Below are positions 29,328 to 53,793 of a DNA stretch of 64,000 bases, piece by piece. Source of the DNA: Channallabes apus (lineage: Eukaryota > Chordata > Actinopteri > Siluriformes > Clariidae); the NCBI GenBank assembly GCA_030522415.1, contig CM060108.1, positions 35,708,756 through 35,772,755 on the forward strand, in the 5' to 3' direction. The first letter of the stretch is position 1. Each line of letters opens with the position of its first letter. Below the pieces are notes generated by a model. That model did no database searches. It saw only the letters and a program-made list of their open reading frames with translations, and was not told where the DNA came from. The position numbers and the translations under genes were made by a program.

Positions 29328-29328
29328 A
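29327..29328. repeat. TA target duplication, left
   Basis: TA directly before CAGTGGTTACAAAATCGGA; the right counterpart is 53,794-53,795. Confidence 0.65.
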
Positions 29329-29599
29329 CAGTGGTTACAAAATCGGAGCGTCGTATGTAACGTCGCCGCCGCATTACGGGATGTGCATTTGCTGTGCATT
29401 TGCTGGCTTTTACCACTGAGTGGCGCTATATAACTACAGACTGACGCCTCATGCCTTAGTTCATTCTCTGCCTCAATAATACACGTAATAGCCGATAACA
29501 TCAAGTGAAACACTGTAGTTGACCGAATTCATAATCACAGTACTATAATTACAGTACAAATGTAGAATTCAAATTAAATCAAATCTTATTAAGATCAAA

Positions 29600-29930
29600 T
29601 TTAAGCACAATAAATATTAACACAGTGAGCCTTTAGATTTTATCACGTGTAATTAGAAAAGAAGTGTGTAGGGTTTTATTTAAATATAAATTTCTAAACC
29701 AATAAGATCAAATAACACCAAGTTATTATTATAACAGGCTTACTTCGTCACTTATCAAAGACGTACGCTTGCTTTCAAAGAAGTCGAGTGGCTTATTAAC
29801 GTCTCTGGTGTGCATTGTCTCTAAGTGGCCGCTTGGTGTAGCGGTTAGAACACTCGGCCAGTGATCTATAAAGCGCCGGTTCGAATCCTGAGTGATGTTT
29901 TAAAATTTTTTTATTTTAAAACTAACTAAA
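29600..29930 (+). repeat. tRNA-like module, left arm
   Basis: Contains a tRNA-like core (29,827-29,892) with A-box-like TGGTGTAGCGG and a perfect B box GGTTCGAATCC, preceded by 'ataacaggcttacttcgtca' and 'caaataacaccaagtt'. The same composite occurs inverted at 52,660-52,890 and 53,210-53,470. An acceptor stem cannot be formed, so it is a Pol III-promoter-bearing repeat (SINE-like) rather than a tRNA gene. Confidence 0.6.
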
Positions 29931-30329
29931 ATGTTTTAAGTGCGCTTAAGGTAGAGTCTTATAAAGGCTATGTAGACTTATATAGTTTTATTATATATTT
30001 TTTGCACATTAATCTGAGTCCTCATCTGTTAGATCTGTTTAGTTTTTTTTTTCCTGCCGGGACGAATGCGCGGTTCCATCCCTTTCCCGCCTATTCAGGG
30101 AGCCTACGGAGTGAGCGATTAACCATAGTCGAATCGATTGGTGTGCGTCCAACTCACGTAACTCGTGTGCTATTCATGCCGGCTGGTGATAATTAACGTT
30201 AATATGATCTCGGGCTTGCTCACGATGCTCAACATCTATAAAAATAGCAAAGTATTGTGTATAGAGTGATAAAAAAAACTATCTAACGCATGTTAGAAAA
30301 CATAATTTCCTGCATTTTTTTTTCTGCTT

Positions 30330-30470
30330 CAGGAGTCAGTCTGTTCTGAGACAGTGAGAGTAGAGGAAGGGGCAGATTCAGAACCAGGGAGGGAGCCGGA
30401 GACAGCAGAACAAAGAGATGATATTGCCAGCACCAGCACAGGGAGCACAGTTTTTAGTTTAGATCTCATG
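30330..30470 (+). pseudogene. Transposon-type acidic reading frame, fragment
   Basis: The reading 'SETVRVEEGADSEPGREPET' resembles N-terminal linkers of hAT/zinc-finger transposon proteins in fish. No domain follows. Weak call. Confidence 0.2.
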
Positions 30471-30638
30471 TTTACATTTTATTGTATGTTGATGGCTTGA
30501 CTGTAAACAACATAAACAATGCAATAAATTTATAAAAATATATATTTATTGTCCCCCCTGCTGTTAAATGAAATTTGCGTTATTTTACGTTAATGTTACG
30601 TTATTACATTATTAACGTCGACAGAATAAAGTAAAGTT

Positions 30639-30743
30639 TTATTTCTGGAATTGATGAACGGGCTTCATCTTAGGCTTTTTTTTCTTTCGGTTCTTTCGTT
30701 TCTCAGCGCCGGACTGTTGATGTCTCTTTCCAGGACCAGGCAT
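30639..30743 (-). pseudogene. Short basic ORF, possible transposon N-terminus
   Basis: 34 codons starting MPGPGKRHQQSGAEKRKNRK. 'SGAEKRKxRK' is frequent at the N-terminus of hAT/TTF-type transposases. It ends in a stop without any further domain. Confidence 0.25.
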
Positions 30744-31813
30744 ATCGTTCAATTATTATAATTCTTTTGGCCAAATACACTCTAAAAAGTAATTAATGGG
30801 ACCTTTTGTCATTACTTAAATATATATGTTGTTGTAAAATGAAAAATCAAGTTCATAAATACTGTTAGACTTTTTACTTTAAATTTTTATTTTATTGAGC
30901 TCAGGTGACACACAAATTATGCCTTTTGATTCAACATATAATCATGACTTGTCTGAGTTTAAAATGATCCGTTAATCAAAAAATAATTAAATTTTAAGTT
31001 CTGTTGATGTAAAATACAACTTGATGACGTGTAAACAGCCCACAGTTTCCCTCTTCTGCTCAAGCAGACCTGGGCAACACGTGTTCAAGGCTCATCCAGC
31101 GTTGTGGTCGTGTTGAATGGTAAGTACTTTAATGCTTAATTACACATATTTGCATTAGCTTGGGATTCTGTTAGTGATAGCCTACTTCAAAAGAACGATG
31201 TAACATAGTATCTCTCCGGGTAGCAGGCGAGACGCTCCGGTTAGTTTTCCCCCGCGTTTGTGTGCACCGCAGGTCGGTTTTAACGTTCATGGAGCCGCTA
31301 ATTCAGCGATAGTGGATCATTGGGCACTTGTTGTAACATTTAACACCAACGTTACTGTTATACAGACCATTGTAATTGTCTTATAATGTTAAAGCAGGCT
31401 TCTGTAGTGTGTGAGTTCTAAAGGTGAAGCTAGACAAGCAAAGTTGATATCACTGCAGTGTTTGCTGTTAGCGAAGCAGTGATGGAAAAGTTTTATTATC
31501 GAAATGTGACATTTCTTTGTAAATGGAAGCATGTTTATGTTAACTGTTAGGTAACGCTAATGCTAGGTGGCGCTTTTCGCTTCTCAATGTACAGTACGTC
31601 AACAGTCTTGCAAAAATTACGGGGTGAAGTTCAACCCCGGACCGAGCCCTGAAAGATGCCAGACATCTATGGCTGTTATACTTTCCAGCGCCCAATGTCG
31701 TGCCTATGTATTCATGTCCATGCTGTTTTGGATGACCGGTCCCAGCTAACGCTGTCCTTGAAAATATCCCCAATTTTAGCATTTCATGAATCACAAATGT
31801 TGCATGCACTGCA

Positions 31814-31855
31814 TGCGCGCGCGCGCACACAAACACACACACACACACACACACA
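31814..31855. repeat. (GC)n(CA)n microsatellite
   Basis: GCGCGC followed by CA repeats in the presumed first intron of the transposase gene. Confidence 0.9.
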
Positions 31856-32373
31856 TCACCGGCAGTAACAGTTCATTTAAATGCTTTGAAAGAGAAATAT
31901 ATTAAAAGATGAATGTTACATGTATGTTTAACAGAGAAATATATTACAATTTTAAAAGGGTGCTAAAATGAGATACTGAATGGAAAAACTGTTCAAAAAG
32001 TAAAAAAAAAAAATGCTTCTTAAAAGTAAGTAATTTCATTTGTGTTGTTAACCTCACAATGAATATTTTTTTTTTGTTTGCACTAAAATATCCATCCTCC
32101 ATGAGCAAGTGCAGTCACCCTCAAAATTTCCAAGACATTTTAATGTTATAATTTATCTTATTTTTAAAATGTGAGCAGCATTAAAAGGCTTGCTTTAAGA
32201 TTGGCCCGTCATAAAAAACACACTTTGGTACTGGTGAGCCACCAGGCTTTACAAGTTTAAAAACATTTATTTCCCTACTTAGGTCTTCAGTTACTTTGCT
32301 GTGTGCCTTGCAAGGACAAAAAAACTCAAGCCTTCATCTTCTCCTGGTATCCTGGTGTCGTGGACCATCAAGT

Positions 32374-35030
32374 ATGGATTGGCCTTGCAAAATCTGTAAA
32401 TTTGCAACCTCTACTAAAGATGAGTTGTTGAAACATTATAGGTTACGTCATATCCCCGGTGTGCAACCTCTGCCATGTCCTTACCTAGACTGTTTTTGTT
32501 CATTTAAATCATGGGGTAGCCTGAAATCACATATATCAAGGAAACACTCAACTCACACAACAAGAGTGAGAACCTCTGAAATACTAAGTTTCTGTTGCCA
32601 GTTCTGTAATGTGGGCACATTTTCCACTGAAAAAGAGTATTTTGAACACCTTCGTCAACATTTGAAAAAGCAAGAAACTGTCTCCTGTGTTTTCAAAAAT
32701 TGCAGTTTCAAAACTAATATTTATGGAACATTTGCTTCGCATAGAAATCGAAAGCATACTCCCCACTCATTAGATGAGTTTAAAGATGACGTTTTAAAGA
32801 GGTATGAAAACACTTCGCAAACAGATCAGTGCAGTGATTTCGTTAATCAGGAGGGTGAACAGTCTGACATTGATGAGTTTAGAGATGATGATGTAAAAAT
32901 ACTACCAAAGTTGATTGAAAGAAGCTTGGCTCATTTGATGTTGAAATTAGAGAGTTCCTTTCATGTTCCCAACCGATGCATTGATGAGCTTGTAGAGGAG
33001 TTGCATTTTATTTCTCATTCAGCCTCTGCTCCCATCATGAAGGACATTTTACAGTCTTGCTTGAAGAGACACAACTGTGAAATTGATGAAGCCATTGTGT
33101 CTGAAATGGTGAACGACATCTGTGGTGCTAACCCTATTAGCTCTGCCCTCCGTGATGGTGGTTCTCTTTCCTCTGCCTTCAAAAGAAGAAAGTATTTTAA
33201 TGAACACTTTTCTGTCGTGGAACCGATTGAGTATATTCTTAGTGGAGAGAGCAGCTTCCAGTATGTCCCCATTCTAAAATGTTTACTTCAGGTTCTTAGC
33301 AGGAAAGATATACTAGACCTGATCTTGAGTGAGGCACAAGCTCAGAGAACTGTGTACAAGTCATTTCATGATGGCACCTTTTACAAAACCAATGAGCTGT
33401 TCTCAAAAAGTGACCTTACAATTGCTCTCAATCTCTATGTGGATGACTTTGAGATTTGCAATCCTCTTGGTACATCCAGGAAAAAACATAAAATCACATC
33501 TGTGTATTGGGTGTTAGCTGATGTCCCCTCATTGCTCAGATCTGAACTAAACTCAATCTTCTTAGCAATTCTGTGCAGGGCTGAGGATGTGAAGAGATTT
33601 GGTTACAGTGTTGTGTTGGAACCACTGCTCAAAGATCTTGTGGTCTTAGAGGAGGAAGGACTATATGTTCCAGCACTGGGCAGAAGAGTTAAAGGCACAG
33701 TGTTTAGTGTGGTTGCAGACAATCTCGGTGCCCATTCTATGGGAGGATTTGTTGAGAGCTTTTCCAGTTCATACGTCTGTCGATTTTGTCTAGGTGAAAA
33801 GTCACAATTTCAAGATGGTGAAGTGAGAACAGGGGCATTCCCACCCAGAACAAAAGAACAACACACACTGCATGTTCAGACTTTACAGGAAAATGATAGT
33901 TTGAGGCATGTGTATGGAGTGAAGATACAGTGTGCACTGACAGCAAAAATGAAATATTTTCATGTTTTGTCTGGATATCCACCTGATGTGTTGCATGATC
34001 TTTTTGAAGGTATAGTGCCCCTAGAAATAGCACTGTGCCTAAGAGTATTCATTCACAACAAATACTTCACTCTTGAAGAGCTGAACAAATGCATCAAAGA
34101 GTTCCCCTATAAATGGTCAGACAAAACCGATGCACCACAGCCTGTCCCTGTGAACTTTGCCCAACGGAAAAGTGTGGGTGGCAATGCCCACGAGAACTGG
34201 GCTTTGCTGCGACTCTTGCCACTTATGGTTGGATCGAAAATCCCTGAGGGTGACCCAGCATGGGAAGTGCTTCTTGTGCTCAGAGACATTGTTGAGCTTG
34301 TTGTAAACCAAGTCCACACAGAGGAGACCATTTGCTTCCTGGATAGCAAGATATCTGAGCATAAACACAGGTTTCTCATGGTTTTCCCAGAGCAACGTCT
34401 CATCCCAAAACACCATTTCCTTGAACATTATCTCCAGAACTTATCAGGGCTTATGGTCCTCTGGTGTCACTGTGGACAATGCGGTTTGAGGCAAAGCACA
34501 GCTTTTTCAAGCGTGTTGTCAGACATACTCGTAGCTTTAGAAATATTCTGCTGTCACTCGCTATGAAGCATCAGTTGTTGCTTGCTTATAACCAGCATGA
34601 TTCCAGAGCTGTCAGACCTTTACTACAGGCTACAACACTGTCTACAGTGGATGTTAGTGTGCTGAGAGAGGATATCCAAGAAGCACTGCTGGCCAAGTTT
34701 CCTGGTGAGACATGTGTCCAGATAGCCAAGAGTGTGTGTTACAGGGGCACCAAGTACACTAGTGGAATGATCCTGGCTAATGGTTCCACTGGTGGTCTAC
34801 CAGATTTTGGGGAGTTGATCCAGATTGTGGTTTTGAAGGGCAGTGTTGGATTCATAGTGAAAGGTATAACTGCTTGGTCAGTTGAGCATCTGAGGAGCTA
34901 TGTGCTTGAGAAAAATGGTCCAGTGAAAGTCATAGAGCCAGCTGAGCTATCAGACATGGTCCCCTTAATTTCTTACACCTTTGGTGGAACAACCATTATG
35001 ACTCTTAAGCGCAGCATTTGTGTTTCATAG
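32374..35030 (+). pseudogene. Zinc-finger transposase (EnSpm/Plavaka-like), one frameshift
   Basis: ATG at 32,374 opens MDWPCKICKFATSTKDELLK, the first of four C2H2-like fingers (C5, C8, H21, H26; the others to about residue 140), probably for binding transposon ends. A long catalytic-type region follows: LYVDDFEICNPLG (about residue 355), VVADNLGAHSMGG (446), CRFCLGE, GYPPDVLHDLFEG, PKHHFLEHYL, then LWTMRFEAKHSFFKR (about 700). Asp355-357, Asp449 and Glu703 are plausible DDE residues by position only. A one-base loss at about 34,452 separates the frames 32,374-34,566 and 34,464-35,030. No stop is seen otherwise. I place it with CMC/EnSpm-type transposases by recognition. Confidence 0.65.
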
Positions 35031-35214
35031 ATGGTACCCATACTTGGTGGAGATTTTCAAATGAAATGCTACAAACTCGCATCTTACAGTCTTCCTACTA
35101 TTATCAGACATGGCATATAGTTAATGGGCTCCTGATTTCCATACTTAAAGATAAACTTTTATATGCTCTTTATTCATTATTCACCATTTAGCTGTTACTA
35201 AGAATTACAGAAAC

Positions 35215-36282
35215 ATGGAAAACATTTTGTCTACAGGTTGCATAATGTCACAACCGGCTCAACTCCGAGTGATCCTTGCAGATCACGATGTCCGTAAAGT
35301 TGTACTACCATCTGGAATCCCTGAGATGGTGGATGACCTTCACTCAGTCATTCGTGATACCTTTTCCATTGCAAGAGACTTCTGTCTTCACTATAAAGAT
35401 GCTGGTTTTGGTGATGAGTTTTTCACCCTTGTTTCTACAACTGACCTTAAGGACAGGGACACAATCAGGATTGTGTTTCTCCAGGACCAGGAGCCTACAG
35501 TAACCTTAACCTTAACTGATGTGGCCGACACTTATGTGACTGATCATCCCCCTGAAGAACACTTTGTTGACACCTCATCTGTGTCAAGTAATGACACACT
35601 GATCCTTTCTTCATCTGAAGACAGTAAAGGGCACCGTTACCAGCGCTGGCCAGTTCAGTTTCCGATTCCAAGCTTTTCTGACCTCACAGAGATCCAAATT
35701 CAGTCAGCCAATGAGCGCTTCCAAATATTTGGGACTCTTCTCCCTACAAAAGATTTCATTCCACTGCTTCCTGACATCCTTGGAAAACTAGCAGAAGCTA
35801 TTTATAAGTATACCGCTTATCCATCAAGTCTGCAGATCAGTGAGGTTGCAGAGGCCCTGACTCTAAAGCATCCCTGCCTGAAAGAACCGGGGTCCTTCAA
35901 TGGGTCCTATGGATGGATGCAGCGTCTAAAATATAAGATGAACAATTTCAGAAGTAAGCTTAGAGGTCTCGGCTGCCCTGAAGTTGAAGTAAACTCACTG
36001 AAGAGGAAACCAACACATGACCAATATCCGGCAAAGAATGTTAAAAAACCAAAGAAGGCTGAGGTGAACTACCTACCCCCTTATGCTCCAGGTGAAAGTA
36101 GTGAAAGTTTGGAAAAAGAGAGAGTCGAGCTCCTGAGTGAAGTGATGAAAAGGGACAACTCCAGGGTGGTCGCTCAGAAAATGGCCAAGACGTTCAGCCT
36201 TCGTCGGGAGGAAATAGTGAAAGAGGCCCCTGCCATCAGTGACTTCATGAAGCGCTGGCCTGCACTTTTTAGTGAGGCACAG
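35215..36282 (+). CDS. SAMD3-like transposon protein, exon 1
   Basis: ATG at 35,215 gives MENILSTGCIMSQPAQLRVI. The 356-codon exon ends at a clean donor, CAG|GTGAGA. Visible parts are a ubiquitin/PB1-like N-terminal fold (LRVILADHDVRKVVLPSGIP...TTDLKDRDTIRIVFL), an acidic serine linker, the block HPCLKEPGSFNGSYGWMQRL, and a basic patch (KRKPTHDQYPAKNVKKPKK). Proteins of this type are annotated in fish as 'sterile alpha motif domain-containing protein 3-like', although no SAM domain is evident here. The gene follows the transposase by 184 bp in the same direction. Confidence 0.7.
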
Positions 36283-36501
36283 GTGAGATAATAAAATGTT
36301 TGTTAAATCAGTATTTTTGTACTGTGGACTGATAAATTGTGGATACCTGTCAAATAATTAAAATAAATAAAAAAAATGTAGAAATAAATACATTTAGACC
36401 CAAATAATTTGAATGTGTACAAATACACATTTAGATATTTTATTTCTGCATCGTTTATACATAATGTCTCTTGTGGTATTTTATACTGGCGTGCCCTGCA
36501 G

Positions 36502-36657
36502 ATATGTGAAGAATTCAAGAGGATAACAACAGTTAGCCTTGAATCGACCTTTCTGGCCAAGCTTGACCAATGCACCCCAAAACTGATGACCTTGACCCAG
36601 TCAAAAGGAGGAGCTGCAGGCCTGAAGATAAGGCAGATTAAGGACATGCTTCTGCAG
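36502..36657 (+). CDS. SAMD3-like protein, exon 2
   Basis: 156 nt between CCCTGCAG and CAG|GTATAA, phase 0 on both sides. It encodes ICEEFKRITTVSLESTFLAK and on to KIRQIKDMLLQ, the conserved continuation in this family. Confidence 0.7.
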
Positions 36658-36849
36658 GTATAATGACTTACTTTATTATGAATAGACCTTTATTTTAATC
36701 TGCCTCACTGTTTTCATGTCAAATGTCGATATGGCTGCTACGAACAAGGTTCATTGTATACTAACACAAATTTTTTTCAAATTGTTCTTATTTTGGTTAC
36801 ACTTGAATCTGATTTTTAATGAACACCGTATATTTTTTCCATCGATCAG

Positions 36850-36942
36850 GACAACACAGTTGAAAAGCGCAGAGAAATTGCCATTCACTGCCTCATAGTC
36901 TATCTTGGAGAGAAAGAGGAGGATCTTTTCAAACTGTACAGC
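36850..36942 (+). CDS. SAMD3-like protein, exon 3
   Basis: 93 nt between CGATCAG and AGC|GTAAGT, phase 0. It encodes DNTVEKRREIAIHCLIVYLG and EKEEDLFKLYS. Confidence 0.7.
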
Positions 36943-37013
36943 GTAAGTACAGTACTTGAGTACTTTTTTAATTTTTAATTTTGTTTGAACTGCATGTCTC
37001 TGCAGTCTCATGT

Positions 37014-37490
37014 TTTGTTCATTAGATTTTCCGTTCAGGGGTGAGTATTATTAGAGTATTATTATTTGATGTTCTTTTCAAAGTTGAAAAACAAAAACAT
37101 TAAAAACTAAGCATTTTTCATTTCAGACGTTAAAATGAAATGAACAAAAATTTGAATGGATTGATTTTGCTTTTTATAGGTTGTAGAATGAAAAAATTCA
37201 ATCACTTAAAGACAAACACAAGACAACCTGTTTTAGCATATTTTCATACCGGAAGTGGTAGTTTATTTGGGCGAATCATGGAGAGGCGTTGCATGGGGAG
37301 GGACTTACAAAGTTCCTGTTCCAAAACCAAAATCAAACCATTATCAAATTTTTGTTTATTTCATTGTAAAGAATATATGAAAATGTCTTGCATTTAATTT
37401 TTAGTTTTTCAACTTTGAAATAAAAATTAAATAAACACTCGTTTTGTTTTTTAATACATGCCCCTGAACGAAAAATCCAATGACCAAAAC
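37014..37490. mobile_element. Palindromic MITE in SAMD3-like intron 3
   Basis: The left end 'gattttccgttcaggggtg' is mirrored by 'catgcccctgaacgaaaaat' on the right. Further in, 'gttgaaaaacaaaaac' is mirrored by 'agtttttcaact'. The element can fold almost end to end. No ORF of its own. Confidence 0.65.
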
Positions 37491-37669
37491 ATACATGGAC
37501 CCTTTAGCCTTCGTGGGTAGAGATATGGCCGTTTCAATCTTGTGCTCCAGTCTCCTGTGGGCTAGGCGTTGAAGTACATGGTCACCCTGCATTCCCTTAT
37601 GCTTGTCATCCTGAAGAGCTTGAGCTATGTATTTTATACATCCTGACATCTTTTAATTTCTCTTACAAG

Positions 37670-37948
37670 GATGTGGAGGAGCTTGACGAAGACCTTGCAA
37701 TGCAAGTGATGAAGATTGCTATCATTGGTGATGGGCGTGCAACCATCATAGTTGAGGGATCCAAGATCCTGGAGGGGATTGATGTCGCCAGATCCTGTGC
37801 TTTGCTGATGGGAGTAATCTACGCTCTTAACCTTACCTATCCCAAGCACTTGAAATTTACCTTTGAGGTATTTCAGAAGCTATGCCTTGAGCTTGATGGA
37901 CAAAAAGCCAGCTCTAAAGTAATGAATCTCAAGTTTGGTATTTTCTAG
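37670..37948 (+). CDS. SAMD3-like protein, last exon
   Basis: 279 nt after the acceptor TCTTACAAG. It encodes DVEELDEDLAMQVMKIAIIG, an IVEGSKILEGIDVARSCALL block and the family ending YPKHLKFTFEVFQKLCLELD before a stop at 37,946-37,948. The four exons give an uninterrupted 531-residue protein, so this partner gene is intact while the transposase has a frameshift. AATAAA signals follow at about 38,269 and 38,557. Confidence 0.7.
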   Translation, partial: DVEELDEDLAMQVMKIAIIGDGRATIIVEGSKILEGIDVARSCALLMGVIYALNLTYPKHLKFTFEVFQKLCLELDGQKASSKVMNLKFGIF

Positions 37949-38261
37949 AGCAGACTTGATCGACCTTCCGTGATGGAGAGTTTCACATCACACACACACA
38001 ACCTGTTCTTTTTTTTGCATTTCTGGTGCCACTTCATTCATTGGGTTTTACCAAATTTTAAAACACTGTTCTTTATAAGCTTCTGAGTTCATGTTTTGTG
38101 TCTAGCCTACAAATGCTGCTGTTTGCACGTTTTTAAGGAATTTGAGCTGTGGTTAATCTCTCCCATGACTTCTGTGTTCTGAGGGTATTGGTGTGTTTTT
38201 GAACTTCATATGTAGTGCCCTCTTTAGCTGCCGTTAATCTGGAAGATGAATAGTCAAATAT

Positions 38262-38350
38262 TGATAAGAATAAAGATAATTATGTAAGAGTACTGACAAA
38301 GTTGAATGAAAGAAGCTTTGCTTATTTTATGCTTAAATTAGTGCATTTAA
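38262..38350 (+). repeat. Duplicated scrap of the transposase gene
   Basis: 'actgacaaagttgaatgaaa' and 'gaagctttgcttattttatg' closely resemble transposase codons at 32,900-32,955 ('ctaccaaagttgattgaaag', 'aagcttggctcatttgatg'). It is a diverged, truncated copy in the 3' region of the partner gene. Confidence 0.55.
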
Positions 38351-38898
38351 TGTACAGCAATCTGTCATCTCTTGTTTTGATTCACTTTCATGTGTTCAAG
38401 TCAAAGAATGGTGATCCATGTACTGGATTTTACTACATTTTATTAAACTGGTCCTCATAAGTTTCTGAGGGCATGTTGTTTTGTGTCTCAGGAAAATGTA
38501 GCGTACAAATCTTGTGGTTTGAAAGTTTAAGAATTGTCCTACTGTTTTTTACTGTCAATAAATGGGTCTAACTCATTTGAATAATACTGTCTGAATTTCT
38601 ATTCTTTTTGAGCACCAGGAAAGAATCCCTTAGCTGCTGTCCAAGAGCAGACACAGCACATGGTAACTTAATTTCATTTGGAAAAAAGTCTGATCATCAA
38701 GTCTCCAACTGTCTTAGAACCTTGACTTCTACGTGGGCGGGGACCACCATGGAGGAGCCCGACCCACAAGGTACTCAAGGTTATATTACAACCAAACGAC
38801 CAAGGTTGTAGTTTTGAGAGACTTAGCCTTCTGGGAAACAGGAAAATGCTCTTATTATAGGAAACTCTTGCAGGGATCATATAGGCATCATACTAAAT

Positions 38899-39230
38899 AT
38901 TAAGTTCATGTTATTTAGAAATTTGTTTTATTGTGACCAAAAAGCTACTATACCATACCTAAAATATTAAGTTGGATCAACTTAAATACTTGCATGTATG
39001 TTGATAAATATTAAGTTCATTTTAATTAGAAATGTATTTTATTATGACCAAAAAGCTACTTCAACATGCATAAATATCATGTTAGATCAACTTAAATACT
39101 TGCATTCTTGTTGACAATTATTAAGTTCATGTTACTTAGAAATGTGTTTTGTTGTGGCCAAAAAGCTACTTCACCATATTCAAAAACATTGCTTTGAATT
39201 AATGTAATTCTTCCAGCAGTTGGCTTAACT
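38899..39230. repeat. Three 110-111-bp tandem subterminal repeats
   Basis: Units start 'attaagttcat' at 38,899, 39,010 and 39,120, each followed by 'gaccaaaaagctac' or 'ggccaaaaagctac'. They lie just inside the right terminus, where EnSpm elements usually carry transposase-binding repeats. Confidence 0.7.
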
Positions 39231-39297
39231 TAAAAATTCTAGTGGAAAACGTTAACATATTTTTTTATGTCAAACTAATGTTTTATTTTTTAGAGTG

Positions 39298-39879: not shown

Positions 39880-40235
39880 GTGTGTGTGTAGGCTCTACGC
39901 AGGGGCAAGAGAGGGCAGCGCACCCTTAAATGTCTGCACATGTTAATATATTCCTAAAATGTATATATTACAAGTTGATAAACTGATCTGCGGTAGCTGA
40001 AAAATCCGCTGAAAATGACATGCTGCAGCGCACACGCACACACACACATACACACGCGCGCACACACACAGACACACACACACACACACAGAACTGCGGT
40101 AAAGCCAGCCGCGGTTCAGAAATAAACGGTCAAGCCAGCCGCGATTGATTTTAGTGTGCGCACATATTACATTAATTACGGTAGTTTCAGGACCGACACA
40201 GAGAGAACGCGCTTTCAGAGCGCTTTTCTAGACGC
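39880..40235 (+). repeat. hAT-like remnant, left arm
   Basis: 'ggctctacgcaggggcaaga', the 'ttacaagttgataaactgat' block and a (CA)n tract match the repeat at 3,519-4,445. The part 40,090-40,235 ('gccagccgcggttcag', 'acgcgctttcagagcgcttt') is about 90% identical, inverted, to 50,465-50,600. Confidence 0.6.
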
Positions 40236-40740
40236 CCAGGACTGAGAGATAATACAAAATGCTCGTCAATTTTTACTTGCTTATTTATTTGCATTTCTGC
40301 TTTAATATCCGTGTTATTTATTGGTGACTTTGACGGTTGTCTGTTACAATATTTTTCTTAAATATTCACCATTCAAATATGTAGATAAGTTATGTAGATA
40401 AGTTACAGCAGAATTCGTAGAAAACAGACAAAATAATGTAGTTAGTCTTTCTAAATACCAGAATTGATTTTTATTTTGTTTTACTGTTCAAAAGTAGCAG
40501 TTATTCTTCAATGAATGTTTTCTATAATGAGGATTAACGTCTGCTTTGGAAGAGTGGGCAAATAAACAAATGTTCACAATGGGGAAAAAAAGTTAAATAA
40601 AATGCCTTTATTTCACTTCAGAGACCTATGAAAAAATAAATTCTAGTAAGTATAAAAGGCCATGGTCAGTTTTTATCCCATATAATGTACACACATTATA
40701 TGATAAAAAAAAAAAAACCACTTGTTTGAGATATAAGATA
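40236..40740. other. Spacer before satellite array
   Basis: AT-rich, with no gene. The last 120 bases may be a very degenerate satellite unit. Confidence 0.4.
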
Positions 40741-42097: not shown

Positions 42098-42106
42098 CTG
42101 ACAGTT

Positions 42107-42410
42107 CAATAATGTCTTTATTTTTACGTGAAATACAAACACAAAGGAAATAAGCTCTTTCTGAGAGCTTATTAATCGTCCTTATCTTAATAACAAAAAC
42201 TCACCACAAAACTACAAAGGCAACTAAAGCTAGACGCCTGACTGTGCTTCAGTCACGCTATTTAAACTAAACATAATTATCTTTCCTCGGTTCAGGTGAG
42301 CGCCTACGTCACCTGACCGAGGCGTAACCTGGGAACTGAAGATTTAACCTATAACAAAAGACAAACTAACACAAACTCAAAACAAACGGGCGTTTTGGCG
42401 CCCTCTAGGC
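42107..42410 (-). repeat. LTR or 3'UTR fragment of a retroelement
   Basis: On the minus strand it ends AATAAAGACATTATTGAACT with a poly(A)-type signal, and carries a palindrome AAGCTCTTTCTGAGAGCTTA. The adjacent minus reading ...HFLRFWPPRGRQNARLF resembles the C-terminus of fish LTR-retrotransposon polyproteins. Only one end is present. Confidence 0.4.
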
Positions 42411-42510
42411 GGCCAAAACCTCAAAAAATGCTCCTCCGGAGCATCACCGCAGGTCCTGGACTCCCACCCCAATGTTCCCACTCTTTTCCCCCGATCCCGA
42501 GGGTCGGTGG

Positions 42511-43698
42511 CTGCAGAGCTGGAGCCAGACTCGGCGGCTGCAGAGCTGGAGACGTGCTCGGCGGCTGCAGAGCTGGAGACGTGCTCGGCGGCTGCAGAGC
42601 TGGAGACGTGCTCGGCGGCTGCAGAGCTGGAGACGTGCTCGGCGGCTGCAGAGCTGGAGACGTGCTCGGCGGCTGCAGAGCTGGAGACGTGCTCGGCGGC
42701 TGCAGAGCTGGAGACGTGCTCGGCGGCTGCAGAGCTGGAGACGTGCTCGGCGGCTGCAGAGCTGGAGACGTGCTCGGCGGCTGCAGAGCTGGAGACGTGC
42801 TCTGCGGCTGCAGAGCTGGAGACGTGCTCGGCGGCTGCAGAGCTGGAGACGTGCTCGGCGGCTGCAGAGCTGGTGACGTGCTCGGCGGCTGCAGAGCTGG
42901 AGACGTGCTCGGCGGCTGCAGAGCTGGAGACGTGCTCGGCGGCTGCAGAGCTGGAGACGTGCTCGGCGGCTGCAGAGCTGGAGACGTGCTCGGCGGCTGC
43001 AGAGCTGGAGACGTGCTCGGCGGCTGCAGAGCTGGAGACGTGCTCGGCGGCTGCAGAGCTGGAGACGTGCTCGGCGGCTGCAGAGCTGGAGACGTGCTCG
43101 GCGGCTGCAGAGCTGGAGACGTGCTCGGCGGCTGCAGAGCTGGAGACGTGCTCGGCGGCTGCAGAGCTGGAGACGTGCTCGGCGGCTGCAGAGCTGGAGA
43201 CGTGCTCGGCGGCTGCAGAGCTGGAGACGTGCTCGGCGGCTGCAGAGCTGGAGACGTGCTCTGCGGCTGCAGAGCTGGAGACGTGCTCGGCGGCTGCAGA
43301 GCTGGAGACGTGCTCGGCGGCTGCAGAGCTGGAGACGTGCTCGGCGGCTGCAGAGCTGGAGACGTGCTCGGCGGCTGCAGAGCTGGAGACGTGCTCGGCG
43401 GCTGCAGAGCTGGAGACGTGCTCGGCGGCTGCAGAGCTGGAGACGTGCTCGGCGGCTGCAGAGCTGGAGACGTGCTCGGCGGCTGCAGAGCTGGAGACGT
43501 GCTCGGCGGCTGCAGAGCTGGAGACGTGCTCGGCGGCTGCAGAGCTGGAGACGTGCTCGGCGGCTGCAGAGCTGGAGACGTGCTCGGCGGCTGCAGAGCT
43601 GGAGACGTGCTCGGCGGCTGCAGAGCTGGAGACGTGCTCGGCGGCTGCAGAGCTGGAGACGTGCTCGGCGGCTGCAGAGCTGGAGACGTGCTCGGCGG
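42511..43698. repeat. 27-bp minisatellite, about 44 copies
   Basis: Perfectly regular GCTGCAGAGCTGGAGACGTG... units of 27 bp, with only a handful of variant positions (for example 42,802, 42,873, 43,261). Since 27 is divisible by 3 and the unit has no stops, several frames on both strands stay open across the array, giving several long spurious ORFs. It lies between an LTR fragment and the 28S fragment. Confidence 0.95.
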
Positions 43699-43764
43699 CG
43701 GCGGCGGAGCTAGCCCTGAGCTCAACGGCGGCGGCGGAGCTGGAGGGAAGCTTGACTGCTGTGG

Positions 43765-44536
43765 CGGAGGCCTTCACTTTCATTGCGCCATGGGGTTTCG
43801 TTCGAGCCCTCTGACTCGCGCGCGCGTTTGACTCCTTGGTCCGTGTTTCAAGACGGGTCGGTTGGGTGGCCGGCATTGCCGCGGAGTCAGACTCCTGTGC
43901 CATGGGTGGGTTAGGGAGGGCACGGAGGTCACTCGCCCGCAGCCCCGGGATAAGCGGCGAATTCGGGGTGGGGAGGCCCTGTAAAGCTTGTGGCGCTGTA
44001 AATGTGCCCGACGGTGGTCGTGGAGCCTCGGCCGGCGGAAGCATGGGGGGCACGCGCACGCTGGCGAGGACGGCCCAGGACCGTCGGGTTGAATCCCCTG
44101 GTCGGACTGTGCGGACCCCAACCATTTACCTCTTAATGGTTTCACGCCCTGTTGAACTCTCTCTTCAAAGTTCTTTTCAACTTTCCCTTACGGTACTTGT
44201 TCACTATCGGTCTCATGGCGGTATTTAGCCTTAGATGGAGTTTACCACCCGCTTTGGGCTGCAATCCCAAACAACCCGACTCCGAGAAGTCCGCGCCCCG
44301 GCCTCACACCGTCCACGGGCTGAGCCTCCATCAGAAGGACTCAGGCCCCCGGCCCACGCCGGGTGATGCGGACTTCCGTATGACACATTTCCCCGCGCCC
44401 ACCAGTGGACGGGGTTTTCGGCGCTGGGCTCTTCCCACTTCGCTCGCCGCTACTGAGGGAATCCTTGTTAGTTTCTTTTCCTCTGCTTCGTAATATGCTT
44501 AAATTCAGCGGGTCGTCTCATCTGATCTGAGGTCGC
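43765..44536 (-). rRNA. 28S rRNA 5' portion, diverged fragment
   Basis: The minus strand begins ACCTCAGATCAGATGAGACG followed by the 'cgctgaatttaagcatatta' signature. It runs through 'gagtttaccacccgctttgg' to 'ttcactttcattgcgcca'. It then stops abruptly at the minisatellite. Variable domains look shortened. It is a truncated pseudogene-like piece rather than a working gene. Confidence 0.9.
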
Positions 44537-45162
44537 GTTTGGATGCGTTTCCCGGGGTGGCCGACGTGTGGCCGCGTGCCCAGAGGTGAGCCTCACACCC
44601 CTCTCCCTCTCTCCTCAGAGAAGGGAAGGAGTGATGAGAAAGAGAAGAGAGTGTCTCGGAGAGAGCGCCGTCTGACCCCCAGCCTCCCCGCCTGCCTACC
44701 GCCTGCGTGCGCCCACTGCCCCCCGGCTTTTCGCGCGGCCCCGGCCTGCGGAGGCGTCACGCAGGCAGTCAAAGTGGAAGGGATCAACACAGTGTGTGTT
44801 AAAAACCTCGGGGGAGGTCGCCCCGGAACTCTCCCCCGCGAACGGGGCAGAGAACTCGGGGTCATTGAATCACGCCGGCGGGCGCGGGGTAGGGGGAAAG
44901 GCTGGGGGAGAGGCATGCACGCGTGCGCACACGGAAGGTAGAGGCGAGGGAGAAGGGAGAGGGGTCCGCTCAGTCCAAACCCGACCAGCGCGCGCCTGGC
45001 CACGGCCGGCCCCCACCCCGAACCACCACGCACCGCGCAACGCTCGAGCAGCAGGTACCCTTGCCCCATCTTTCTATCTCGGTCACCGGAAAGGTTTCGG
45101 GAAGTCCCGAGGGTTAGAGGAGGAGGAGGAGGCGGCGCGCCCCCCCGCGGGGTGCTACCCGT
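44537..45162 (-). other. rDNA internal transcribed spacers, 5.8S not found
   Basis: GC-rich spacer of 626 bp between 18S and 28S. I looked for the conserved 5.8S segments (around 'gatgaagaacgcagc' and 'cgaacgcacttgc') on the minus strand and found neither. ITS1 and ITS2 thus appear fused with 5.8S missing. Confidence 0.65.
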
Positions 45163-45279
45163 TAATGATCCTTCCGCAGATTCACCTATGGAAACCTTGT
45201 TACGACTTTTACTCCCTCTAGATAGTCAAGTTTGATCGACTTCTCGGCGCTCCGCCAAGGCCCGTGAGGAGTTACTATT

Positions 45280-45326
<47 letters not shown>

Positions 45327-45758
45327 ACGAGCTTATGACCCGCGCTTACTGGGAATTCCTCGTTCATGGGGAATAATTGCAATCCCCAGTCCCAATCATG
45401 AATGGGGTTCAACGGATTACCCGCGCCTCTCAGGGTAGGCACACGCTGGTCCGACTATTTTGGCGTGTGTGCAGCCCCAGACATCTAAGGGCATCACAGA
45501 CCTGTTATTGCTCCATCTCGCGTGGCTGAACACCACTTGTCCCTCTAAGAAGTTGGACGCCGACCGCGAGGGGCCGCGTAACTATTTAGCATGCCGTAGT
45601 CTCATTCGTTATTGGAATTAACCAGACCAATCGCTACACCAACTAAGAACGGCCATGCACCACCACCCACAGAATCGAGAAAGAGCTATCAATCTGTCAA
45701 TCCTTTCCGTGTCCGGGCCGGGTGAGGCTTCCCGTGTTGAGTCAAATTAAGCCGCAGA

Positions 45759-45792
<34 letters not shown>

Positions 45793-45988
45793 ATAAGTTT
45801 CAGCTTTGCAACCATACTCCCCCCGGAACCCAAAGACTTGTGGTTTCCCGCACGCTGCCCGGCCGGTCATGGGAATAACGCCGCCGGATCGCGGGTCGGC
45901 ATGGTTTACGATCGGAACTACGATGGTATCTGATCGTCTTCGAACCTCCGACTTCCGTTCTTGATTAATGAAAACATTCTTGGCAAAT
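45163..45988 (-). rRNA. 18S rRNA 3' portion, diverged fragment
   Basis: The 3' end matches the universal 'aaggatcattaa' region (plus strand 'taatgatccttccgcag'), followed by 'tgttacgacttttact', 'cgacgggcggtgtgtacaaa' and the rest of the 3' half. Conserved sites are changed: CAGATTCACCTATGG instead of CAGGTTCACCTACGG. The helix near 45,260 is deleted. The 5' half is missing beyond 45,988. It is a pseudogene. Confidence 0.9.
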
Positions 45989-47895
45989 GCCAAGTGAGTG
46001 AGTATGGCAAATGCCTGCTGAGTGAGTGAGATGGCCGTCTACGACTCCCTGTGATGAGGCACCAGGCGGGGGGCGGCGGAAGAGACTCGACGCTTTTCAC
46101 CCCCGGTATGACAGGTGAACCCGCAAAGGTGGAGGGGAAAATTTGGAAAAAAGGGAAAAAAAAAAAAATGACCGAAAACCATGAAAAAGGGGCTTTAAAG
46201 CCCGCTCCCGTACCTTCCTGGGCGGCCCGGAAGCCGTTCAGGGGTAGGGGGTCCGTTTACCAGAGCCCTGGGTGCTTGGACCCCTGCAATTGCTACTGTC
46301 TCATGAAATTCTGACCATACCTCCCGCAGGTGAGGCGGGACCCATGCCCAGGAAGGGGCCTCGAGGTCGGGCACAAGCCGGAAAGCGATAGGCCTGGATC
46401 TGCCACCCCGGGGTAAAAAGTTGGGACTTAGAAAAATTTTGACCGGCCAAATCCTGCTGCAGGAATTGGGCCTCAGGCCGACCAGAGGCACTCTCGTCGC
46501 CACGCTCGGCCGTTTTCCGCGATCACACCCCTGGAGGTCTGAATCCGCCTGGAGGAAATGGATCCTAGCCCAGCCCAGGCACCTCGGGTCTGCTAAGCTA
46601 GGCGCCCCCACCCGCGGTCACACCCCTGGAGGTCAGATTAAAAGAGAAATTTCTTTCGCTCATATCTCGCAAACAGCCAATTCTGCCTGGAAAAAAACGA
46701 TTTTGCCCGGCCCTAGGCACTCCCCTCGGCCGCTTTCGGGCTCACCCCCACTGCCCAAGGGGCTCCTGGGTCCTGGGGCGGGGGCCCCGACTTCGAACGG
46801 CCATATCTCGGCCGCTGTTGGACCGATCGGCTCCAAATTTCGCATGGGGAGTTCAGGGTCAGGCCCCGTACCCGGTGCCACATGCCCCGGCCCGATGCCC
46901 CACTCCAGCACCCCCTGGAGGATGCACCCCAGGTGAGGATTTGCCTCATTTTACTCTCTGGGATTTTGAAAATTTCCCCGGCTCTCAGCTCACGCGCAGG
47001 CCGAATCCTCCATGAGGAATCGGATTCTACCCGACCCCGGGCACACCAGCTCGGCCCCACTAGGCACCCCCAGCTGCGGTCTGACCCCTGGAGGTCAGAT
47101 TGATGGGACTTTCATTCACTATGCACTCACAGGCTGAATCCTCCTGGATGAAATGGTTCCTAGCCGGCCCCAGGCACCCAGGTCGTCCACGCTAGTCACC
47201 CTCACCCGCACGCCCCCTGGAGGTCTGGTCCTTTATTACTTCTATTTTATTGTTTTTTTTTACCTCACCGTAAATCCTTTACACTAAGCCCCAGCCCCTA
47301 ACCCTGATCGCCCTGAGACCCGGACAGCCCGAGCCCTAAAACCACTAGCACTCCATCGAGCCTTAGCCGCCCGCCCCAGCACCCCACCTCCGGTGCACCT
47401 CTTCACCCTACGAGCGCTGCCCAAGACGCAGCCGACGGGCCATGCCCCAGCCCTCTAGCCCCGATAGCCACGGAGATACGCCGGCTCAAACCCAAGGGGG
47501 AAATAGTGCCACTCACCGCCCGCCACACAGGCCTCCCTACTCGTCCCTGGAACTGGCCTCTCCCCGGGGCTCAAACCCCCATCCCCCAGGACCTCGCCCA
47601 CCAGCACCCACACTTAAGCACCCCTACATGGACTAAGCATCTCAGTACGGCCCGCTGAAAGGCCGGACCCCTGGGATAACCACGGATTTTTGCACCGACC
47701 CCTGGTATAACCAGACCCCTGGTATAACCGGGGACTTTGTCATTTTTATTTGATTTTTCTTCGCCCTGGCCCCTGGTATAACCGGTGACTTTGTCGTTTT
47801 TTATTTTTGCTTTGTTACTTTTTCCTGTGCCCCTGGGACACCCGGGAGGCTGCCGGGGTCCAAGGAGGGCCGGACGCGCGGCCTCGGCTCCCGGG
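45989..47895 (-). other. rDNA intergenic spacer and external spacer
   Basis: GC-rich spacer between the 18S fragment and the 28S tail. It has imperfect repeats of 'cccctggaggtcagatt' (46,520-47,230), 'catatctcgcaaacagcc' / 'catatctcggccgctgtt', and 'cccctggtataaccgg' (47,665-47,790). It has the position of the IGS plus 5' ETS of an rDNA unit. A Pol I promoter was not identified. Its ORFs are chance. Confidence 0.6.
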
Positions 47896-48050
47896 CAAAA
47901 TATTGGATCGAGGGCTGACTTTCAATGGATCGCAGCGATGGCGCTGCTCTGCCACTCACGACACCCCGACCCAGAATCAGGTCGTTTACGAATCATTTAG
48001 CACCAGGTTCAACACAAACTTGCGATGCGCAATCGGACAGGGTGCGGGGA
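47896..48050 (-). rRNA. 28S rRNA 3' tail, fragment
   Basis: Plus strand 'tcgagggctgactttcaatg' and 'cccgacccagaatcaggtcg' are the reverse of the conserved last ~150 nt of 28S. It ends directly against the satellite array at about 48,056. Orientation matches the 18S and 5' 28S fragments, so the order along the minus strand is 28S tail, IGS, 18S, ITS, 28S head. Confidence 0.85.
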
Positions 48051-48055
48051 TCGCG

Positions 48056-50056
48056 CTTTTTTATACCCCTCTAAAATGTAATAATGCCCCATATCTCAAA
48101 AATGCTGCAGTAAAATTGTTTCATATTTGGTGTGTATATAGTATGGGACGTCCTGAATAAGAACTGCTGGTTGTTTTTTTCTACTTATTAGAAATGGGGA
48201 CTTTATACCCCTTTAAAATGTAATAATGTCCAATATCTCAAAAATGCTGCAGTAAAATATTTTCATATGTGGTGTGTATATACTGTAGTGTGGGGTGTCC
48301 TGAATAAGAACTGATCATTGTTTTTTTCTACTTATTAGAAATGGGGTCTTTATACCCCTTTAACGTGTAATAATGTCCAATATCTCAAAAATGCTGTAGT
48401 AAAATTTTTTCATATTTGGTGTCTATATAGTATGGGACGTCCTGAATAAGAACTGGTGGTTGTTTTTTTCTACTTATTAGAAATGGGGTCTTTATACACC
48501 TTTAAAATGTAATAATACCCCATATCTGAAAAATGCTGCAGTAAAATAGTTTCATATGTGGTGTGTATATAGTATGGGACGTCCTGAATAAGAACTGGTG
48601 GTTGTTTTTTTCTACTTATTAGAAATGGGGACTTTATACCCATTTAAAGTGTAATAATGCCCCATATCTCAAAAATGCTGCAGTAAAATTGTTTCATATT
48701 TGGTGTGTATATAGTATGGGACGTCCTGAATAAGAACTGGTGGTTGTTTTTTTCTACTTATTAGAAATGGGGACTTTATACCCCTTTAAATTGTAATAAT
48801 GCCCCATATCTCAAAAATGCTGCAGTAAAATTTTTTCGTATTTGTTGTCTATATAGTATGGGACATCCTGAATAAGAACTGATCATTGTTTTTTTCTACT
48901 TATTAGAAATGGGGTCTTTATACCCCTTTAAAGTGTAATAATGCCCCATATCTCAAAAATGCTGCTGTAAAATTGTTTCATATTTGGTGTGTATATAGTA
49001 TGGGACGTCCTGAATAAGAACTGATCATTGTTTTTTTCTACTTATTAGAAATGGGGTCTTTATACCCCTTTAACGTGTAATAATGTCCAATATCTCAAAA
49101 ATGCTGAAGTAAAATTTTTTCATATTTGGTGTCTATATAGTATGGGACATCCTGAATAAGAACTGATCATTGCTTTTTTCTACTTATTAGAAATGGGGTC
49201 TTTATACCCCTTTAAAATGTAATAATGCCCCATATCTGAAAAATGCTGCAGTAAAATAGTTTCATATGTGGTGTGTATATAGTATGGGACGTCCTGAATA
49301 AGAACTGATCATTGTTTTTTTCTACTTATTAGAAATGGGGTCTTTATACCCCTTTAACGTGTAATAATGTCCAATATCTCAAAAATGCTGCAGTAAAATT
49401 TTTTCATATTTGGTGTCTATATAGTATGGGACGTCCTGAATAAGAACTGGTGGTTGTTTTTTTCTACTTATTAGAAATGGGGTCTTTATACCCCTTTAAA
49501 ATGTAATAATGCCCCATATCTCAAAAATGCTGCAGTAAAATTGTTTCATATTTGGTGTATATATAGTATGGGACGTCCTGAATAAGAACTGATCTTTTTT
49601 TTTTTTCTACTTATTAGAAATGGGGTCTTTATACCCCTTTAAAATGTAATAATGCCCCATATCTGAAAAATGCTGCAGTAAAATAGTTTCATATGTGGTG
49701 TGTATATAGTATGGGACGTCCTGAATAAGAACTGATCATTGATTTTTTTCTACTTATTAGAAATGGGGTCTTTATACCCCTTTAAAGTGTGATAATGTCC
49801 AATATCTCAAAAATGCTGCAGTAAAATTGTTTCATATTTGGTGTGTATATAGTATGGGACGTCCTGAATAAGAACTGGTGGTTGTTTTTTTCTACTTATT
49901 AGAAATGGGGTCTTTATACCCCTTGAAAGTGTAATAATGCCCCATATCTCAAAAATGCTGCAGTAAAATTATTTCATATGTGGTGGGTTTATAGTATGGG
50001 ACGTCCTGAATAAGAACTGATCATTGTTTTTTTCTACTTATTAGAAATGACGTCTG
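48056..50056 (-). repeat. 142-bp satellite array, right arm (about 14 units)
   Basis: Same unit as 40,741-42,097 on the opposite strand ('aaatggggtctttatacccc'). Variants 'gatcattg' and 'ggtggttg' alternate among units. It abuts the 28S tail on one side and AT-rich spacer on the other. Confidence 0.95.
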
Positions 50057-50464
50057 TATAGGCCCCTGAAGTGTAATGTCATTATTCTTGATATCACCTT
50101 TATGATAATTATTGATTAGTGATTCAGACTTTTAAACCTATTGTAAACTTATTTTGCTATTTACTTTCATTGGAAACATTACACCTAATGAATGCAGTCA
50201 AAAATAACAGAAATTATAGAGCATTGACAAATGAATAAACAACTGAGGGATTTAAAATGAGTATCATTTATTTTGTCTTCCATTTGCATATAATTTATCT
50301 GTAAACACAACTACATTTACAATGACTGTAGAAGAAGAAATATACAGAAAACATTAGATATCGCACCTATAAAAATAAGGAAAACAAAAAATGCAAAACA
50401 CCAGTTTCGAAACATGACACCTTTTTATGTCACATCACAATCACGATGGGCTTTACAAGAAAAG
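50057..50464. other. Spacer after satellite array
   Basis: AT-rich with no gene recognised. It is not homologous to the spacer on the left side. Confidence 0.4.
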
Positions 50465-50600
50465 CGCTCTGAAAGCGCGTCCTCTGTGTTGTTCCTGAAA
50501 CTACCGTAATCACTGTAATATGCGCGCGCACTAAAATCAATCGCGGCTGGCTTGACCGTGTTTTTCCGAACCGCGGCTGGCTTTACCGCAGTCACACACA
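50465..50600 (-). repeat. hAT-like remnant, right arm
   Basis: Inverted match to 40,090-40,235 ('aaaagcgctctgaaagcgcg', 'tcaatcgcggctggcttgac'). Confidence 0.65.
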
Positions 50601-51154: not shown

Positions 51155-51720
51155 ATGATGTCTCCACATGTTAATATATTCCTAAAATTTATATATTACA
51201 AGTTGATAAACTGATCTGCGGTAGCGGAAAAATCCGCTGAAAAAAGCACAGGCTACAGCGCACGCGCGCACACACACAGACACACAAAGACACACCTCCC
51301 TTGAGCCCTCGGTAAACATCCAAGCACTGAGGCACGCAAATCCCCTGACCACAATAAGGTGGCAATCCCTCAGGGGGGGAAGATGAAAAATACAAATTAA
51401 ATAAATAAAACAAAATAAAATATCCTTAATCCAGATTTTATCAATCAACGACATAATATTGATCTTAGCTGGATGGTCTAATTCTCAAAACCGTTTAACC
51501 TAAAGAAAAACTTAACACACTATAACTAGAATATTTACAAAACTGAAAGGTTGTCTTATGTATAATAAAAAAAACCTCATAACTCAAAAAGATCATATGT
51601 TTTTATATATTTTTTTTTATTTTTTTTTTAATAGTAACTGAACAGCTCTCTTCTCTCCAATCCACTCCTAAACCACAGTCTCCTATTTCTCTGTGCGTGC
51701 TCTGGAGACTGTGAATGAAT
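51155..51720. repeat. Rearranged hAT-like copy (head-to-tail inverted)
   Basis: 51,155-51,305 matches the 5' part of the 3,519 element in plus orientation. From about 51,310, 'aaggtggcaatccctcaggg' and 'taatccagattttatcaatc' match its 3' part (4,320-4,440) in minus orientation. It appears to be a folded, internally inverted copy. Confidence 0.5.
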
Positions 51721-52659
51721 ACACGCAGCGGAGGTTTTGTAAACTGTAGAGATACAATAATTTTACTGCTGGAAAATCAGCATTTTATCTAATTTGAAAT
51801 ATAAACCTAATATTATCTGTTACTTAATATATTTTCTTTTGATGATGACCATAACAGCCTACTGCATTTCATTATTTATAATAACACAAAAACAATATTA
51901 CAATATTTGATATTTTAATATAAACTCGGTATCATTATCCTCCTTGTGTATGTGTAAAAAACATTTGATTTGTTCTATTTTTTATTCTGATAGTGTGCTC
52001 AATTTGTTTCTAGTAATTTATATATTTAAATTCGGATGCCTTTTACTGTTACAAATTTAACTCTTTGCTGTACAAGCCCTTGTGTTGTTGTTTGTGCTGC
52101 TGTTCTTTAATAATACCAATAATCAGCTACAAACAGTCTGTCTAAACGAAAATTAAGCAATGCTTCTTAACTCATCATTATGTGGATATTTTTCATGTTC
52201 GTTGGATAAAGTATGTACGGTAATTATTTGGTCTACTCTGTACTGTATGTGCGTGAGAGAGAGGGGTGTCGCGGTCGTGAAACAAAGGCTCATTTCAGCT
52301 CATTCAGTTTCTCTGAATGGATAGGTGAGAACAGCTGATTCACGGTGAATAATTTGCATTTGAGTGTTGCCAAGTGAAAAGAAGACAAACATCAAGACGA
52401 ACAACATATAAAACTGAGACAATATTTTAAAAAGAATCGCAATCAACCTGAACAGGTAAGCTGGAATAAAATCAGTAGCAGCATTAACTAAAGTAATTAG
52501 TAATTATTAGCTGCTACTGATTTTATGGACTCATCACGGTTAAATACGTTGGTCACATTGGATTCATTACGGTTGTATATCGTGCTCTGAATAATAAATT
52601 TTTTTGTTTGCTGTTTGTTTGCTGAGTAAAATTAAAATAGAACAATTTTTTAAAATAGC
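51721..52659. other. No recognisable feature
   Basis: AT-rich sequence with no convincing gene, RNA or repeat. Confidence 0.4.
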
Positions 52660-52890
52660 ATTATCCAGGATTCGAACCGATGCTTTGTAAATCCCTGACC
52701 GAGCGCTCTAACCGCTACACCAACCAGGCACTAAAAGACAACACACCTCCGTGACCTTAATAAGCCACTCGACTTCTTTGAAAGCAAGCGTTAAATAAGT
52801 AACGAAGTAAGCCTGTTATACAATTATACTATTTGCACGTGTATTTTATCTGTTTTAAACTTGGTGTCATTTGATCTTATTGGTTTAGAA
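52660..52890 (-). repeat. tRNA-like module, right arm copy 1
   Basis: Minus-strand tRNA-like core at 52,665-52,730 with TGGTGTAGCGG and GGTTCGAATCC boxes. The flank 'ccactcgacttctttgaaag' matches, inverted, the left module at 29,780. Confidence 0.6.
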
Positions 52891-53054
52891 ATGTTTGTAA
52901 AAAAAACTATTGTTATCAAAAATGTAAAAGATGTAACACCGGACTTCATTACCCACAATGCATCTCCCGCACTGGACTACACTGCCGTAAACAGCTGTCG
53001 TAAATCAAAACTCCCGGTACTGCAGATGGCCACCACTTTTCATCAGTATAATGA

Positions 53055-53092
53055 CACACACACACACACACACACGCAGCAGCAGCAGCAGA
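53055..53092. repeat. (CA)n(GCA)n microsatellite
   Basis: CA repeats followed by five CAG units. Confidence 0.9.
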
Positions 53093-53209
53093 CCGAGCCG
53101 TCACTCCCCTAAATTTAAAGAATACAAACTGGTTGCGTGCGAGTTTGCTGTTTTTTCTATAGTATGCTGAAGCAAAATCAAAATACAACAATTTTTTTTA
53201 TTTTAATTT

Positions 53210-53470
53210 TGCTATAATTAAAATAAAAAAATTTAAAACATCATCCCTCGGGATTCGAACCGGCGCTTTATGTATCACTGACCGTGTGCTCTAACCGTAA
53301 CACCAAGCAAGCACTTAAAGACAATGCACCCAAGTAACGTTAAATAAGGCAAGGTTAATAAAGCAAGCTCTGGATAAGTGACGAAGTAAGCTTGTTATAA
53401 TAATAACTTGGTGTTATTTGATCTCATTGGTTTATAAATTTATATTTAAATAAATAGTAAACTTGGCCGA
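53210..53470 (-). repeat. tRNA-like module, right arm copy 2
   Basis: Minus-strand tRNA-like core at 53,247-53,313 (B box GGTTCGAATCC). The flank 'aataacttggtgttatttga' pairs with 29,705-29,730. It is closer to the left-arm copy than copy 1 is. Confidence 0.6.
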
Positions 53471-53793
53471 TTTCGTTATAATTTTGTTTGATGAGTGGGG
53501 CTTGAAAATTCTCTTGAAAAATATGGTCATTTATTTCAGTTAATAAATCTACTATAATTTTTTTTACTCATTATTGTACAGTACACATTAATAGCTCTGG
53601 TTCAGATTTTTCATGTTTGTTGTGGAAATTACCATCACTGTTGTATTTACTGCGATGAATGAAAATGTCACTTTGCGCCACCTGGCGGCCATTTTACGAA
53701 TGACTTTGAAATGCAACAGATTTATTTTGGCCGCTGTTGCCTTTAAACGGCGGTATACGCGGCGAGATCGCCATTCCAATTTTGTAACCACTG

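Follow-up and report, generated by a model that had tools for sequence, protein, structure and literature searches.

The window analysed here is a stretch of 64,000 bp from the siluriform fish Channallabes apus (assembly GCA_030522415.1, contig CM060108.1, positions 35,708,756 to 35,772,755). Our subject is an insert of 24,465 bp at window positions 29329-53793, which lies between two direct repeats. Three parts of a base element, delimited by comparison with other copies in the genome (29329-30777, 39298-40092 and 50593-53793), alternate in it with a nested two-gene CACTA-type transposon on the plus strand (30778-39297, 8.52 kb) and a second nested element of 10.5 kb, here called Z (40093-50592). 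An earlier, sequence-only reading of this DNA had proposed either a giant composite with mariner-type ends that moved as a unit or a small element that was later expanded by nesting.

Ends, target site and host provirus

The two ends of the insert match each other in inverse orientation. CAGTGGTTACAAAAT occurs exactly at 29329-29343 on the plus strand and at 53779-53793 on the minus strand, and the terminal inverted repeat extends over 19 bp (29329-29347, plus; 53775-53793, minus), of which 18 are identical and beyond which identity ceases. A TA adjoins each end (29327-29328 and 53794-53795), forming the two copies of the target site. This agrees with the inverted ends beside TA that the sequence-only reading had described. 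Allowing up to 2 mismatches, the 15-mer was found three times in the window, while shuffled sequences gave an expectation of 0.26. The best place for the 19-mer besides the two ends has 5 mismatches and, therefore, no second terminus of a small miniature inverted-repeat transposable element (MITE) lies near either end. The case against which the earlier reading had cautioned, in which each end belongs to a small MITE of its own, was thus not observed. Further inward, a block at 29675-29919 recurs in inverse orientation at 53218-53454 (83%), and a third copy lies at 52632-52907.

The direct repeats on either side of the insert (23460-23800 and 55860-56202, both minus strand) are 97.7% identical over 343 columns. 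We read them as the long terminal repeats (LTRs) of one minus-strand provirus that would measure about 8.3 kb without the insert, the left copy being the 3' LTR and the right copy the 5' LTR. Since this repeat encloses both flanks of the insert, both were assigned to the same provirus. Both LTR copies start sharply with TGTTGTGG. By eye, a purine tract adjoins the left LTR and a primer-binding-site-like sequence, putatively of the tRNA-Ser type, adjoins the right one. Left of the insert, the minus strand has weak, sub-threshold Pfam matches to RNase H and to the zinc domain of integrase. No duplication of 4-6 bp was found in the sequence outside the LTRs, and the reading frames in the flanks near the insert are full of stops and decayed despite the near-identical LTRs. 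It had been claimed that a retroviral gag is interrupted by the insert and resumes at its other end. This was not borne out, as five translations of the flanks revealed no Pfam family, a protease-like piece gave none either, and a protein search with a gag-like piece from the right flank remained without match. From its position, gag is nevertheless a plausible candidate for the interrupted gene.

The base element family and the origin of the insert

A genome-wide search (1.16 Gb) with the end sequence, as the sequence-only reading had suggested, revealed exact matches at 613 forward and 612 reverse positions, and a reversed-pattern control gave none. The ends listed are the first 100 of these 1,225 and lie on two contigs; the window is the only sample from beyond them. 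When the listed ends were paired within 30 kb, plus was followed by minus in 34 cases and minus by plus in none. Of these 34 pairs, 20 span 4.0-6.7 kb and 14 span more than 8 kb, three of the latter exceeding 20 kb. Thirty pairs were examined as complete copies, namely L009-L028 (19 of 4.4-6.6 kb and one of 8.0 kb) and ten longer ones, while pairs of 6.4 kb and 24.0 kb were left out and copies of 24.9 kb and 27.8 kb were seen in part. TA was present on both sides in 20/20 and 10/10 of these copies, and thus in 31/31 including the window, which is the target-site duplication of Tc1/mariner elements.

The commonest form of the family is about 5.45 kb long and corresponds to the three base parts of the window joined without a break, which sum to 5,445 bp. 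Each interior bin of these parts found a match in roughly 18-30 of the other 30 copies, with a base-element identity of about 93-99% in the copies whose alignments were inspected. At least one further subtype, comprising L010 and most of B2-B9, shares mainly the ends. The left-type ends are highly similar to each other (mean pairwise identity 0.974, 29 ends), which points to a recent spread of the family and, apparently, to recent activity. No recognisable transposase was found in the base element, nor did six-frame translation of the interiors of L023 and L010 yield one, and no mariner transposase was found in the whole insert, as the sequence-only reading had stated.

The interiors of the CACTA-type transposon and of Z were matched by none of the 30 other complete copies. 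Where their alignments were inspected, the base sequence passed uninterrupted over both insertion points (30778 joined to 39298, about 40090 joined to 50593), in each case in 6 of 8 copies (of 20) and also in B1. The insert measures 24.5 kb because base element, CACTA-type transposon and Z add up to this length (5.45 + 8.52 + 10.5 kb). These comparisons make it very probable that a non-autonomous, TA-inserting transposon of about 5.45 kb lies in the provirus and was enlarged to 24,465 bp by two nested elements. We infer that both nested insertions took place after the base copy had landed in the provirus. The nesting proposed earlier as one of two options therefore holds, although the starting element was about 5.45 kb long and not 1-2 kb.

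That a 24.5-kb giant composite entered the provirus as one unit appears very improbable to us. The outer ends are intact and flanked by TA, family copies measuring 24.0, 24.9 and 27.8 kb from end to end exist, and a one-off move leaving no further copy is conceivable. A composite should, however, present identical inner boundaries at two or more sites, and the earlier reading had proposed to look for them. We probed the left host/CACTA junction genome-wide with a 121-bp sequence and scored 40 places of 882 candidates. Only one of the 40, the window itself, matched in full, while 35 matched on the host side only and 4 on the CACTA side only. Moreover, where the copies of 24.9 kb and 27.8 kb were seen, they hold other fills, and the latter contains a Z-type end in a different context. 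Together with the absence of both nested inserts from the 30 complete copies, this speaks against a move as a unit. We also considered whether the entire insert is one giant CACTA element, its outer ends being those of the inner CACTA-type transposase. Target duplications of 2 bp do occur in some animal CACTA relatives, according to the SmTRC1 paper (PMC1636069). This candidate was rejected as scarcely credible, since the transposase genes are enclosed by their own CACTCTAAAAA ends with TA, these ends occur elsewhere with no outer element adjoining, and 30 copies of the outer family lack the CACTA genes. The left tip recurs elsewhere, and all three fetched CACTA-side-only places were preceded by TA.

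Some observations weigh against the nested origin of the insert as we propose it. Genome-wide probing covered the left CACTA junction and those 40 scored places, the fourth CACTA-side place (C11) matches from the A onward only, with no TA visible, and neither an autonomous copy nor a transposase was found among the copies examined. On balance, what looked like a giant composite is the product of ordinary nesting, and its host element is an unusual, large non-autonomous TA transposon. Large mobile-looking segments with terminal repeats are likewise known in fish from Teratorn and other giant transposons (PMC6431247), but the insert differs in that its size stems from private nested insertions and not from a coherent gene set.

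The outer element shares the TA target and the CAGT-type tip with non-autonomous elements of the Tc1/mariner type, and it is just these two characters, TA and CAGT, that suggest such a membership. It differs from them in its size of about 5.45 kb, in that no transposase was found, in its tRNA-like modules and in that a long stretch without repetition separates the tip from the inner block. MITEs are non-coding, reach high copy numbers, have a short terminal inverted repeat, use TA and measure under about 1 kb. In the first four respects the outer element is MITE-like, but it is 5-6 kb long where MITEs have a few hundred bases, and its complete copies measure 4.36 kb or more, so it exceeds MITE size. 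Among the other copies, L023 and L026 have identical 12-base flanks on both sides but are themselves in opposite orientation, reflecting either two insertions in the same repeat site or a flip. Some long family copies contain Tc1 open reading frames that look nested. A segment of the window at 3520-4439 is 84-87% like pieces of the base element and might be an older relative or a shared component.

The nested transposon at 30778-39297 has inverted CACTCTAAAAA ends with TA on both sides, and hence the inverse CACT tips and the 2-3 bp target duplication of CACTA/EnSpm elements. Its transposase gene (32374-35024, plus strand) encodes C2H2 fingers and a putative tnp2-like core, with one frame break between 34383 and 34464. 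The second gene (35215-37948, plus strand), termed 'SAMD3-like', has a PB1-like N-terminus and four exons (35215-36282, 36502-36657, 36850-36942 and 37670-37948). A literature search for SAMD3 together with a transposase in zebrafish returned nothing. The 2-bp target duplication, the CACT tip and, putatively, the tnp2-like core are shared with CACTA/EnSpm and TRC elements as presented in PMC1636069. For animal TRCs that paper proposes a CCC tip, whereas the nested element has CACTCTAAAAA. Further differences are a PB1-like start of the second gene and a transposase core that models best on RAG1. The two-gene layout at 32374-37948 invites comparison with RAG1/RAG2-type transposons. A palindrome-like MITE lies in the last intron of the second gene (37010-37492) and, downstream of both genes, 110 bases at 38232-38341 are 79% like the transposase-gene part 32841-32950.

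Element Z has inverted ends of about 140 bp that are 91% identical over the first 137 columns. Within it, a 142-bp satellite forms a left arm (40748-42095) and, inverted relative to it, a right arm (48060-50060). Between these inverted satellites lie a 27-bp minisatellite (42504-43699) and a decayed ribosomal DNA (rDNA) pseudogene on the minus strand (43700-48100), in the order 28S end, spacer, 18S 3' half and 28S start. The two-gene transposon, the satellites and the rDNA had been described as cargo of the insert and are found there. The tRNA-like modules, counted as cargo as well, belong to the ends of the base element instead.

tRNA-like modules in the element's ends

A tRNA-gene-like module that points inward is the unusual part of this family. 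In the window the left end holds one module on the plus strand (29834-29914), with an A box at 29834-29844, a B box at 29878-29888 and T-runs behind them. The right end holds an inner (52640-52737) and an outer copy (53219-53322), both on the minus strand and also directed inward. At least one module with A box, B box and T-run was detected in 31/31 complete copies, and all 81 modules of these copies point inward. The outermost modules lie 460-508 bp from the tip in 58 of 60 cases, the other two being displaced inward in B1 and B2. The A box has at most 1 mismatch in 80/81 modules and the B box in 78/81, where it is exact in 50. With A and B boxes at tRNA-like spacing and a T-run behind, the modules have the sequence layout of a type 2 promoter of RNA polymerase III (Pol III).

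Conservation was compared across 62 ends as the mean major-base frequency. It was highest in the tip (0.979) and in an inner motif (29690-29755, plus strand; 0.977), which is possibly a second transposase-binding site, and fell to 0.73 at positions 20-340. The spacer before the boxes reached 0.877, the A box 0.952, the stretch between the boxes 0.842, the B box 0.919 and the T-run 0.94. The two kinds of end share 66% identity overall and diverge strongly between tip and inner block. A cloverleaf, as a tRNA gene would have, was not found, and the modules look like kept promoter boxes rather than tRNA, with a small margin over the spacer. They share A box, B box and T-run with tRNA-derived short interspersed elements (SINEs). 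They differ from SINEs in that the A box is preceded, within the repeated block, by about 150 bp and that the modules are sited in the ends of a DNA transposon, and no SINE body was identified. The open-licence literature that we searched, as far as its text could be seen, held no report of tRNA-like modules in DNA transposons, and the end tip sequences, searched as text in the same way, led to no paper on these elements.

How the family moves can be proposed from the ends alone. Most likely, a transposase supplied in trans would recognise the 19-bp tip plus the inner motif and insert the element at TA. As to the modules, their A and B boxes might be kept by binding of TFIIIC, perhaps together with Pol III, which would provide the element with a boundary in chromatin or with short transcripts directed inward. 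The modules could, for instance, be boundaries protecting the ends of the transposon against silencing. Alternatively, they could be Pol III units directed inward that aid transposition through their short RNAs or their chromatin state. We put forward such a use of the modules by TFIIIC and Pol III only tentatively. Similarly, it is conceivable, but somewhat doubtful, that this family of at least 613 members, which appears to have spread recently, built TFIIIC-binding modules into its ends as a working part.

The modules could instead be passive, and we give this explanation an even chance. In this view, an ancestral end acquired a tRNA-derived piece a single time, the other end received a copy of it along with the inner motif, and the piece has only hitchhiked since. 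The block of about 250 bp is indeed repeated as a unit, the boxes are less well conserved than the inner motif, and blocks could stay alike through gene conversion between ends. The fixed place and the inward orientation of every module are less readily explained in this way, as is the finding that both boxes are more conserved than the sequence separating them; the lowest B-box value (0.74) falls on the G of a CpG. A working role of the modules is in turn weakened by several results. No Rfam tRNA match was obtained at E<=10, and ARAGORN found nothing in the window but a tRNA at 62640-62710. Fair conservation is also seen in the spacer and between the boxes, a conservation test on three copies was weak (p = 0.03), and the 62 rows are related copies and thus non-independent. 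Modules were detected by similarity to those of the window, a procedure that misses decayed ones and favours intact boxes. L009 and L013 have no module in their right end and, among the eight single ends L001-L008, both boxes (at most 2 mismatches) were present in six but missing in L001 and L007, the latter being the right end of L009; L006, L007 and L008 belong to copies already counted.

In place of the claimed giant composite we arrive at something testable, a transposon without coding sequence that is about 5.45 kb long, is represented in one genome by at least 613 elements or fragments of ends, and has the modules at a nearly fixed place in its ends. Should TFIIIC bind the modules, this would link the success of a DNA transposon to the Pol III machinery of its host. 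To our knowledge, dependence on Pol III has so far been a trait of SINEs.

Other features of the window

Relatives were looked for among viral contigs and genome contigs, and none were found. A Tc1 element lies at 15654-17278, left of the provirus, with inverted ends of 217 bp that begin with CAGTGGTGTGAAAAA and adjoin TA; by reading, some of the outer family's long copies contain relatives of it. Coding pieces for PRY/SPRY and B-box zinc-finger domains were found at 10300-10764 and 19730-20095. On the other side of the provirus, the window contains pieces of a Harbinger-like transposase (DDE_Tnp_4) at 57639-58755 and the tail of an UnaL2 long interspersed element at 59108-59161. The tRNA reported by ARAGORN at 62640-62710 is a tRNA-Gly gene.

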